Shown here one piece after another: positions 2,853-7,556 of a stretch of DNA of 55,111 bases. Source of the DNA: a virus; the IMG/VR virus record IMGVR_UViG_3300043777_000051, positions 1 to 55,111 of that record. The stretch is one strand, 5' to 3'. Each line of letters starts with the position of its first letter. Positions within the stretch are counted from its first letter, which is position 1. The position numbers and the translations under genes are program-made. A model generated the notes under the pieces. The model saw only the letters and a program-made list of their open reading frames with translations, made no database searches and had not been told where the DNA came from.

Positions 2853-3099
2853 AGCGAAATTGAAAGCGCTTACCGGAAAAACTATTAAGGCGGCGCACGT
2901 CTATCTCGGGGGCGCATACATGGAAAATGATGACCGCTCTCTCGAATTGACGTTCGAGGACGGCTCACAGTTCATCTTCGAGATTATGTCGAAGCGTGAA
3001 GTGCTGGAAGGCACGGCAGTGCTTTACGACCCTGCTCCCAATCACGCCGAGACGGAAAAGCAGGAAGAGGTGCGGCGGCACGTTCTAAGGACGGTCTGA
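2842..3099 (+). CDS. Small hypothetical protein
   Basis: 85 residues behind AGAGGAGAGAGCG. It contains a two-strand motif (ELTFEDGSQFIFEIMS) and an acidic, charged tail. Not recognised. The duplicated 19-base block flanks it on both sides. Confidence 0.65.
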   Translation: MQDRAKLKALTGKTIKAAHVYLGGAYMENDDRSLELTFEDGSQFIFEIMSKREVLEGTAVLYDPAPNHAETEKQEEVRRHVLRTV

Positions 3100-4580: not shown

Positions 4581-6227
4581 ATGAATGAGTGTACAGGTCC
4601 ATGTTGCAAACCGCCATACCCGGAAGTGCCCGTTCATCCTGTTCAGACTCGCCGCGTTGTTCATCATTCTGCGAAGTGCCCACAGGTTGTAACGTGCAAG
4701 GCTTATGAGGTTTACTGCCACGTCTATGCTCCGCAGGAGGCGCTGGTCACGGGCAACTGTCGCGGCGGATTTGGAGTAGGAGAACTGATCGCCTTTCTTT
4801 ATGCACGCTCGTTTCCAAAAGAACAATGGCGACAACGAGTGGATGAGGCGATGCACGGAATGACTTGGCAAGAGGTCGTGGAACTGTGTAGATGGGCGGA
4901 AACTCCACGATTGAGCCGGGTGTGGGCACAAGATGCGCGAAACGTAATGGCTCAGTTCGCGGCATGGGGTGACAGTTGGAGGGATGATGTCCCTGCGGCA
5001 GCAGCGTATGTAACAACGGATCAGTACAAAACATCCAAGCGATTAATTGCGGAGTACGACGCCGCGCTCTCCGTGGCAGGGACGGAACCGCCAGCGCCCA
5101 CGGTAGAAGATTTGCAAGCTGTGATTGAGCGTGATCGAACGAATGTCTGCGATGCAATTAACGGGTTGAAGAAGGTAATCCGTGAGCGGGAATGGCTAGG
5201 CGAAGGACGCGGCCCCTACGAGTGGGACGACGACCGCTGGCACGATGAGTTCAACGCGACCGCCGCCGAGATTCGGGAGGCACTGAAGCCACTGGAGAAA
5301 ATCGCAGCAAATTTAAGCAACTCGCCCACAACGCACGAAGCGGTTCAAAAGGCGAGGGAGATTCCAACCGACAAGACCGACGACTTTGAAGCGAGGCAGG
5401 ATGCAGGCAGGCAGGGGTCGGAGAGATGCCCAGTCTGTCACGGTAGCGAGAAAGTTCCACTATATACTTGGCCTACCAACGGTTGCCGAGGTACTTTTCA
5501 CTGGATCGACGCCGCAGCCCCGGTCAGCGAGAAGAACGTCTCAGGGCCAAGCGCCTTCGTCAGCGACGTAAACATTCCGGACGGGCCAAGCTGCTCGGCG
5601 TGCGGAGTGGCGATGGTGAAAGTTGGAGTATGCGACGGCTCGATATGCCATCAAACTTACGGGATCGGCACGCACCCTCTCGGGATAGTGTGCGGTGATT
5701 GGCACCCCGTAGAATTCCGCTGCCCCTCTTGCGGTGCGACCACAGGGCTGACGGACGCAAAGGGGACGGAACCTCTAGCACCCGCTAATCCGCTAGTCTG
5801 CGACGACTGCGGGCATGAAGGCTGTGATTGTGGACCATTCGATGCCATAAACCGGGAACTGGCCAACCTCCGCAACTGGGCAAATCGGAAGGAAGTCGAG
5901 TTGAAGGCCGCGCAGGAACGGATTCGAGAGTTAGAGGCCAGACAGAAGGGGCCAAGCGCGGAGACTAGCGCCGCCTACGCTGCTCATGTTCGAGACGCTT
6001 ACCGTGACGGCTGCGAATGTGCCATGTGCGTCTTGGTGAGGGAGTTGGAGGCCAGACAGTCCAGCGCCGCCCCGGATTTATTCGAGATGGCTTCTGGAGA
6101 AGGTCTGTGTTCGACTCATACTGGTGGGCCGCATCGCATCGAACGCGCTTGTAGGAATTGGAAGCCAGTTATGGCCGCGCCCGTTCCCAGCCCTATCCCA
6201 GCCAAAGAGGAAGGAAAGAAGGAGTGA
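4581..6227 (+). CDS. Modular Cys-rich protein assembled around repeated LEARQ linkers
   Basis: 548 residues from ATG 4581 (GGAGAAAG upstream); a GTG at 4539 would add 14. It looks mosaic. An N-terminal part of about 180 residues has several Cys (CTGPCCKPPYP). Next comes a helical part with an IRERE..LGEGRGPYEWDDD segment, then at least four Zn-finger-like clusters (CPVCHGS; CSACG; CPSCG; CDDCGHEGCDCG). A final coil contains RIRELEARQ and VRELEARQ, and FEARQ occurs earlier; the corresponding DNA blocks are near-identical, as if modules had been joined by recombination. Function unknown; a nucleic-acid- or protein-binding scaffold is plausible. The methyltransferase reading frame begins one base after its stop. 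Confidence 0.6.
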   Translation: MNECTGPCCKPPYPEVPVHPVQTRRVVHHSAKCPQVVTCKAYEVYCHVYAPQEALVTGNCRGGFGVGELIAFLYARSFPKEQWRQRVDEAMHGMTWQEVVELCRWAETPRLSRVWAQDARNVMAQFAAWGDSWRDDVPAAAAYVTTDQYKTSKRLIAEYDAALSVAGTEPPAPTVEDLQAVIERDRTNVCDAINGLKKVIREREWLGEGRGPYEWDDDRWHDEFNATAAEIREALKPLEKIAANLSNSPTTHEAVQKAREIPTDKTDDFEARQDAGRQGSERCPVCHGSEKVPLYTWPTNGCRGTFHWIDAAAPVSEKNVSGPSAFVSDVNIPDGPSCSACGVAMVKVGVCDGSICHQTYGIGTHPLGIVCGDWHPVEFRCPSCGATTGLTDAKGTEPLAPANPLVCDDCGHEGCDCGPFDAINRELANLRNWANRKEVELKAAQERIRELEARQKGPSAETSAAYAAHVRDAYRDGCECAMCVLVRELEARQSSAAPDLFEMASGEGLCSTHTGGPHRIERACRNWKPVMAAPVPSPIPAKEEGKKE

Positions 6228-6228
6228 G

Positions 6229-7422
6229 ATGCGCGTCGGCTCTCTGTTTGCGGGGATTGGTGGCTTTGATGAAGGCTTACGCCGGGCTGGGATGGAATCC
6301 GTTTGGCAGGTTGAAAAGGAATCATTTTGTCTCAAGATATTAACAGCACGATTCCCCAGCGCACGGAAGGTACACGATATTCTTACCTGCCGTGGGTTGA
6401 TCTCATCTGTGCCGGAGTCCCATGCCAAGACGTTTCCGTTGCAGGGCAACGGGCAGGACTCGCCGGGGCGCGTACAGGACTCTTTTACGAGTTTGCGCGA
6501 CTCCTGCAAGAGCTTCGACCCACTTGGTTCCTGTTTGAGAATGTTCCCGGACTTCTCAGTTCTAACGACGGAAGAGACTTTGCAGAAGTCCAGCGCGTTC
6601 TCATGGTCGAATGCGGGTATGGGATTTGCTGGCGTATCCTTGACAGCCAATTTTTCGGAGTCGCCCAACGTCGCAGACGTCTGTTCATTGTCGGACGTTT
6701 TGGAAAGCCCTGTCCCCCAGAGGTTCTTTTTGAGCGCGAGAGCCGCGAAGGGGATACTCCGCAGAGCGCAGAAGCGTGGGCGGATATTGCCAACGCGCTT
6801 ACAGAAGGCGTTGGAAGAGTTGGCAGCAAAGGATGCGACGACGGAGCCAATATCGTTGTCGGGCCGCTCGGAGGATCGTCCAGGAGCGGCGGATTCCAGC
6901 CTAACGCAGAGCAAGCCGCAGACGGGCATCTCGTCGCAATCGCTTTTGACTCCAAGTCTGGAGGAGACTTCCGACCCGCTATCAGTGACAAGGCACATTG
7001 CACCCGACAACCGCGAACAGCCGTTGCTGTCGCCGCTCCAATCACTGCCAGCTACGCAAAGCAGGCTGATTCCAGCGACACCAACGGAGGACCGCCAAAC
7101 CTCGTATTGGGACGACTCCCAGATAACGGACACTCTGGACTGCTCCATGCTGGCAAAGGGCCGGATGATGCCAGAGAAACGGCGTTTTCCCTGCGTTCTG
7201 ACCCCGGAGGAATCGGCCAAGGTCGCAACACAACCTACGCCATCACCGAGAACATGCGGAACCGATCCCAAGGCCCAGCCAACTATGTCTGTGAGGCGTC
7301 TGACCCCAACGGAGTGCGAGACTTTGCAAGGCTTCCCAAAGGGCTGGACAGTGCCCGATACCGTGCTCTTGGAAACGCCGTCACCGTATCGGTCATCGAA
7401 TGGATCGGAAGAAGAATTGTAG
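6229..7422 (+). CDS. C5-cytosine methyltransferase, frame A (motifs I and IX)
   Basis: 397 residues from ATG 6229, one base after the previous stop. Residues 5-13 (SLFAGIGGF) are motif I, the SAM-binding site of Dcm-type enzymes. After about 6375 the frame leaves the methyltransferase sequence, and the catalytic motif IV lies in frame B. Frame A stays open and from memory resembles a phage family found beside Dcm genes (CSLSDVLE...FFLSARAAKGILRRAQKRG). It regains recognisable methyltransferase sequence at YWDDSQITDTLD (from 7105) and motif IX, RRLTPTECETLQGFPKGW (7294-7347). Either a frameshifted gene or a dual-coding region. Confidence 0.6.
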   Translation: MRVGSLFAGIGGFDEGLRRAGMESVWQVEKESFCLKILTARFPSARKVHDILTCRGLISSVPESHAKTFPLQGNGQDSPGRVQDSFTSLRDSCKSFDPLGSCLRMFPDFSVLTTEETLQKSSAFSWSNAGMGFAGVSLTANFSESPNVADVCSLSDVLESPVPQRFFLSARAAKGILRRAQKRGRILPTRLQKALEELAAKDATTEPISLSGRSEDRPGAADSSLTQSKPQTGISSQSLLTPSLEETSDPLSVTRHIAPDNREQPLLSPLQSLPATQSRLIPATPTEDRQTSYWDDSQITDTLDCSMLAKGRMMPEKRRFPCVLTPEESAKVATQPTPSPRTCGTDPKAQPTMSVRRLTPTECETLQGFPKGWTVPDTVLLETPSPYRSSNGSEEEL

Positions 7423-7556
7423 GCGCGGCCGTCCGGCCAGTGGTCGGAGAGATTAGCGTCGAGAAAAGCAGCAAGGCACCCATTCACGGTTCCCCACAGT
7501 TTGATGCTAAAACGAGAATTTTCAACATGCAAGCCCTAAGTTTCCAGATTCCGTAA
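6327..7556 (+). CDS. C5-cytosine methyltransferase, frame B (motifs IV, VI, VIII, X)
   Basis: Open from a TTG at 6327 to 7556. It carries the catalytic PCQ (6420-6428), ENVPGL (motif VI, 6537-6554), QRRRRLFIVG (motif VIII, 6666-6695), a variable target-recognition-like region, and RYRALGNAVTV (motif X, about 7356-7388). It lacks motif I, and motif IX is replaced by its out-of-frame reading. One continuous enzyme would need a -1 shift near 6375-6410, a +1 between about 6700 and 7105, and a -1 in the eight bases between 7350 and 7359. No canonical slippery heptamer was seen at the first site. Activity as encoded is doubtful unless two subunits assemble. Confidence 0.6.
   Translation: MSQDINSTIPQRTEGTRYSYLPWVDLICAGVPCQDVSVAGQRAGLAGARTGLFYEFARLLQELRPTWFLFENVPGLLSSNDGRDFAEVQRVLMVECGYGICWRILDSQFFGVAQRRRRLFIVGRFGKPCPPEVLFERESREGDTPQSAEAWADIANALTEGVGRVGSKGCDDGANIVVGPLGGSSRSGGFQPNAEQAADGHLVAIAFDSKSGGDFRPAISDKAHCTRQPRTAVAVAAPITASYAKQADSSDTNGGPPNLVLGRLPDNGHSGLLHAGKGPDDARETAFSLRSDPGGIGQGRNTTYAITENMRNRSQGPANYVCEASDPNGVRDFARLPKGLDSARYRALGNAVTVSVIEWIGRRIVGAAVRPVVGEISVEKSSKAPIHGSPQFDAKTRIFNMQALSFQIP

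Follow-up and report, generated by a model that had tools for sequence, protein, structure and literature searches.

The window, by which we mean the whole stretch of DNA analysed here, is the 55,111-base record of a virus, with genes for a terminase, a portal and a major head protein. Two long open frames overlap on its plus strand, frame A (6229-7422) and frame B (6327-7556), as the first-pass annotation had pointed out; frame B lies in the −1 register relative to frame A. All motifs of a C5-cytosine methyltransferase (I, IV, VI, VIII, IX and X) were found at this locus, spread across both frames:

6219-6224, plus strand: AAGGAG, a Shine-Dalgarno-like motif for frame A that overlaps the 3' end of the preceding gene (stop at 6225-6227)
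6229-7422, plus strand: frame A, from ATG 6229, 397 residues, holding motif I, the nested A region and motif IX
6247-6267, plus strand: motif I (FAGIGGF), frame A, within the frame-A stretch 6229-6385 that is constrained in the clade
6314-6320, plus strand: Shine-Dalgarno-like AAAAGGA, read from the sequence, ahead of TTG 6327, the candidate start of frame B
6327-7556, plus strand: frame B, from TTG 6327, 409 residues, holding motifs IV, VI, VIII and X and part of the variable region
6385-6840, plus strand: region of the nested A, resembling phrog_16143, shifted by +1 from the Dcm frame and homologous to the hidden ORF of 183 loci
6420-6437, plus strand: motif IV (PCQDVS, with the catalytic Cys), frame B
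6537-6551, plus strand: motif VI (ENVPG), frame B
6660-6680, plus strand: motif VIII (VAQRRRR), frame B
6685-6840, plus strand: conserved C-terminal part of A (SLSDVLE...FLSARAAKGILRRAQKRGRILP...), a predicted helical hairpin under frame-A selection
7100-7160, plus strand: stretch of the variable region under frame-A selection according to substitution phases (SYWDDSQITDTLDCSMLAKG)
7294-7335, plus strand: motif IX (RRLTPTECETLQGF), frame A
7359-7382, plus strand: motif X (YRALGNAV), frame B

The partition is exclusive in the window, with motifs I and IX confined to frame A and motifs IV, VI, VIII and X to frame B. PF00145 matched frame A at motif I with 50.9 bits (cut-off 22) and frame B over motifs IV-VIII with 131.4 bits, phage methyltransferase families matched residues 351-374 of frame A at motif IX, and the phrog_116 match in frame B reached through motif X. 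Pfam, PHROGs and motif positions therefore confirmed the distribution that had been read from the letters in the first-pass annotation. It departs from the canonical single-polypeptide motif order of PF00145 enzymes, and the split is kept in relatives. The minus strand is also open at 6078-7532 (484 residues), without a family match.

A C5-methyltransferase is expected in one frame and the source of the record is metagenomic, which speaks for indels from sequencing or assembly, or for a decayed pseudogene; a decayed gene with three indels had been among the options of the first-pass annotation. We compared the window with viral contigs from a frame B scan (L001 and the truncated L002) and from a second scan (L092, L093 and the divergent L096). 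L001, whose DNA is 85% identical to the window across the best segment, has the arrangement of the window (A with motifs I and IX, B with VI, VIII and X), the interleaved layout occurs also in L092, L093 and L096, and L002 likewise has motif IX in frame A. Aligned segments of the window and L001 were free of gaps, and the length differences (81 + 75 = 156 bases) were all multiples of three. Substitutions between these two fell mostly on the third codon position of B, and on that of A at 6688-6807, 7100-7159 and 7280-7339; this alternation of phase gave a chi-square p of 8e-8 for segments picked after inspection. Over five clade members, frame A was constrained at 6229-6385, 6690-6870, 7100-7160 and 7284-7346 (motif IX) and frame B at 6385-6690 and from 7346 (motif X), the handover from B to A lying just upstream of motif IX, at about 7284. 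Purifying selection alternates between frames A and B along the gene, and the relaxed substitution in both frames that had been named beforehand as counter-evidence was not seen. A point on the side of decay was a nonsense codon in frame B of L001 (positions 3076-3078), where TAG replaces the Gln codon of the catalytic PCQ and the remainder of the frame is conserved. Since independent contigs share the layout, the indels are in frame and purifying selection is maintained in alternation, we rejected sequencing error and decay for the window; intact ORFs of 1054-1309 residues elsewhere in the window also argue against this explanation, which we consider very improbable. A recombinase-like ORF neighbouring the gene in the L001 locus also ends in TAG.

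Frame A could be related to sequences well outside this clade. Its residues 108-172 matched phrog_16143 (E 2e-12), a 139-residue family which also matches several phages, and the earlier remark that frame A resembles a phage family corresponding to the shifted reading of Dcm from motif VIII onward proved accurate, the shift being +1. A tblastn search against phages, which had also been suggested there, gave matches in 190 phage records for the A-frame segment. In Rctr41k, Caulobacter phage DMCA, P1, P7, Roseobacter phage CRP-821, Pan4 and one more phage, the match fell in frame +1 of a Dcm gene that is annotated and intact, and no separate annotation of the A frame was present in the regions viewed of these seven. 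A profile scan detected at least 599 stretches on the viral side and 391 relatives among bacterial genomes. Each of the 183 loci with the A profile, P1 dmt included, has A overlapping Dcm motifs VI-VIII, always in the +1 register; none of the 183 contained a free-standing A without an overlapping Dcm, and two Dcm loci were without A. Because the loci were gathered by matches to A, their counts, which are uncorrected for phylogeny, are not a measure of prevalence.

Conservation of the Dcm protein may by itself leave a trace in another frame: the DNA of motif VIII is conserved, and randomised sequences still reached about 60 bits on the A profile. Real A sequences, however, had a median score of 224 bits, and no resampled control exceeded 109. 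When the profile was trained on half of the loci, the held-out N-terminal part of A still reached a median of 125 bits in the other half versus 55 in controls. Frame A was open over 438 nt in 109 of 116 related loci, whereas about 2 were expected from synonymous resampling of the Dcm codons; counting only the sequence that precedes the search patterns, the figures were 109 and 8, and the third forward frame was open in a single one of the 116 loci. In 57 non-redundant aligned loci, the codon position that varies was the third of Dcm ahead of motif VIII and the third of A downstream of it; in this downstream part, identity was 0.81 in frame A versus 0.58 in the Dcm frame. Four-fold sites of Dcm had a synonymous diversity of about 0.7 at baseline, which dropped to 0.42 at motif IV, to 0.13 at motif VIII and to 0.01 beyond that motif, and which was regained past the overlap. 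The Tyr codon that provides the ATG of A was TAT in 56 of the 57 loci, though TAC is commoner across the whole genes, and an ATG near −340 was found in 66 loci, 48 of them with a Shine-Dalgarno-like motif. Among P1-like elements, A was open in 12 of 12, with 145-173 residues from stop to stop; the nested ORF of P1 and P7 measures 163-165 residues stop to stop and is unannotated. A mere shadow of Dcm conservation was ruled out by the resampling and synonymous-diversity tests, and we regard it as scarcely credible. The nested A, about 150 residues long, is a real and widespread +1 overlapping gene within phage dcm genes, whose frame is open and conserved beyond the effect of the first frame and under which synonymous changes are fewer. 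Overprinting, another option of the first-pass annotation, is strongly supported by the resampling, the synonymous diversity and the 183 loci, and extends far wider than could be seen from the window.

Several observations were made along with these loci. In the P1-like L007, L008 and L187-L192, the C-terminal tail of the nested A is swapped among a few versions and the helical hairpin is kept. On plasmid CP009882.1 (hit H149), the feature beneath the match to A bears the name 'multidrug DMT transporter permease', which is probably a mix-up with dmt. Acidobacteriota genomes (L106, L124, L138; L123, L129, L169) have several copies of this kind of dcm, with three hits each in dw_441 and Silvibacterium bohemicum. 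In the Omegavirus phages Schatzie and Thibault (L196, L197), an HNH gene region interrupts dcm, and the Schatzie record states that the intron boundaries could not be determined; gp104 of Thibault is an annotated ORF, apparently in frame A.

The nested A itself had no significant Pfam, NCBIfam or PDB sequence match. In a model of the window sequence, its first 100 residues were predicted to be disordered and the C-terminal helical hairpin was the only confident part; with this mostly low-confidence model, Foldseek returned nothing better than E 3. The Dcm frame carried motifs IV, VI, IX and X in 126 of 166 loci, and A is not obviously needed for catalysis in most phages, since the Dcm frame there has all motifs. 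Together with the predicted disorder and the stop inside the catalytic motif of L001, this would suit an A protein with a role of its own in the phage, such as regulation or counter-defence, that was overprinted on dcm. Indels would then have brought motifs I and IX into its frame, and the enzyme of the window would be poorly active or inactive. We consider such an independent protein unlikely, although its probability is not negligible: the window clade keeps motifs I and IX under frame-A selection and motifs IV-VIII and X under frame-B selection, every A that we found overlaps a Dcm, and A is tied to methyltransferase motifs in independent loci.

These loci show motifs in different frames in different lineages. 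In L014, L159 and the bacterial L203, the Dcm frame holds motifs I-VIII and X, and A holds motif IX. In L152 and L184, the Dcm frame ends soon past motif VIII and A carries both IX and X; L155 has a similar outline in a partly masked record. FP_Toutatis has an N-terminal Dcm part fused in frame to A. L203 encodes a chain of 302-304 residues (I-VIII, X) and a nested A of 182-186 residues (IX), adjoining a convergent ORF without known function and an integrase gene, a neighbourhood as expected of a restriction-modification unit, which is not proof of one. The Dcm frame of L152 (Beijerinckiaceae) has an intein-like insertion that cuts the catalytic motif IV at PC^Q.

Programmed ribosomal frameshifts, also listed in the first-pass annotation, could in principle yield one full-length methyltransferase from the segments of A and B. 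Joining the segments would restore the canonical motif order, and the switching of selection between frames also speaks for such a fusion. At least three shifts would however be required within one gene. At the first A/B junction, inspection revealed no canonical slippery heptamer, and no downstream RNA structure stood out as a stimulator (fold z-score 0.19). Furthermore, ahead of any shift the nested A frame is already conserved, a start region of its own is present, and both frames have start and Shine-Dalgarno candidates, the AAGGAG ahead of ATG 6229 being rated strong. We therefore hold programmed frameshifting to be improbable.

A two-subunit enzyme is the best-supported working model for the window, and it seems reasonably probable to us that the two overlapping genes jointly encode one C5-cytosine methyltransferase. 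Chain A, from ATG 6229, would contain motif I for SAM binding, the conserved domain of the nested A, and motif IX. Chain B, whose start is probably TTG 6327, would contain the catalytic motif IV together with VI, VIII and X. The chains would probably assemble into one active enzyme, as in M.EcoHK31I, with motifs I and IX provided by A, and the catalytic core together with motif X by B. Candidate starts of frame B were also present in L092 and L093, but the start differs among clade members, which counts against a two-chain reading. The stop in the catalytic PCQ of L001 frame B and the complete motif set of the Dcm frame in most phages count against it as well. In ordinary phage Dcm genes, A may serve as an accessory chain of a full-length enzyme, and the window clade would be the extreme case in which motif I, too, has shifted into the second chain. 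More generally, we give about even chances to the proposal that the +1 frame of phage and prophage dcm genes from several bacterial phyla, P1 dmt included, harbours an unrecognised subunit family. This family would have taken over essential motifs in some lineages, and in the window the transfer of I and IX would have led to a catalytic domain interleaved from two chains.

Few long overlapping genes on one strand, with selection measurable in either frame, have been established in DNA phages, and the A overlap lies within an enzyme of hundreds of phages, P1 among them. The overlap would account for phage methylases that look frame-shifted and for annotations that keep one frame only. It also suggests how two-polypeptide methyltransferases such as M.EcoHK31I might originate, namely by motifs passing between the outer and the nested gene.

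The family label of phrog_16143 is just 'DNA methyltransferase', without mention of the overlap with Dcm. In the literature searched, with subscription journals mostly outside its reach, we found no description of the A/Dcm overlap, the sole related case being ShiLan, where a hidden out-of-frame ORF for an HNH endonuclease resides in a phage methylase gene (PMC11855218). Both are out-of-frame ORFs hidden within a phage methylase gene. The ORF of ShiLan, however, is a mobile HNH insertion of disjunct distribution, whereas the A overlap involves the enzyme core and was seen in every A-profile locus examined; the nested A had no Pfam, NCBIfam or PDB match to HNH proteins, and no insertion was found. 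Single-chain phage Dcm enzymes of the P1 Dmt type share with the window the set of C5-methyltransferase motifs and the nested +1 ORF, but one frame there has every motif and the nested ORF stops short of motif IX.

Natural two-chain enzymes come closer. In M.EcoHK31I, the two genes overlap in different frames. Its smaller polypeptide holds motif IX alone, that of M.AquI holds IX and X, and split C5-methyltransferases can complement each other (PMC3404938). A separation of motif I from motif IV is absent from the natural splits described there, which we counted against a two-chain reading. With M.AquI, the window has in common that a C5-methyltransferase is distributed over two chains, and L152 and L184 resemble it further, one frame holding I-VIII and the overlapping A frame holding IX-X; the window, unlike M.AquI, groups X with IV-VIII and I with IX. 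Of the M.AquI-like two-subunit enzyme listed in the first-pass annotation, the two subunits thus stand as the best-supported model and the resemblance to M.AquI gives way to one with M.EcoHK31I. Comparing the described partition and not sequences, the window and M.EcoHK31I both place motif IX in a second chain and keep motif X together with the catalytic motifs in the first. The M.EcoHK31I partition recurs in L014, L159 and L203, whose IX chain is nested in the +1 frame, and in these three the larger chain carries motif I as in M.EcoHK31I. This is not so in the window, L001, L092 and L093; in the window, motif I sits with IX in the second chain, and for this reason we did not file it under M.EcoHK31I. 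By analogy, the window enzyme may at most work like M.EcoHK31I. Its motif partition is closer to M.EcoHK31I than to M.AquI, and the best reading of the locus would be an EcoHK31I-like two-chain C5-methyltransferase in which motif I has additionally moved to the second chain.
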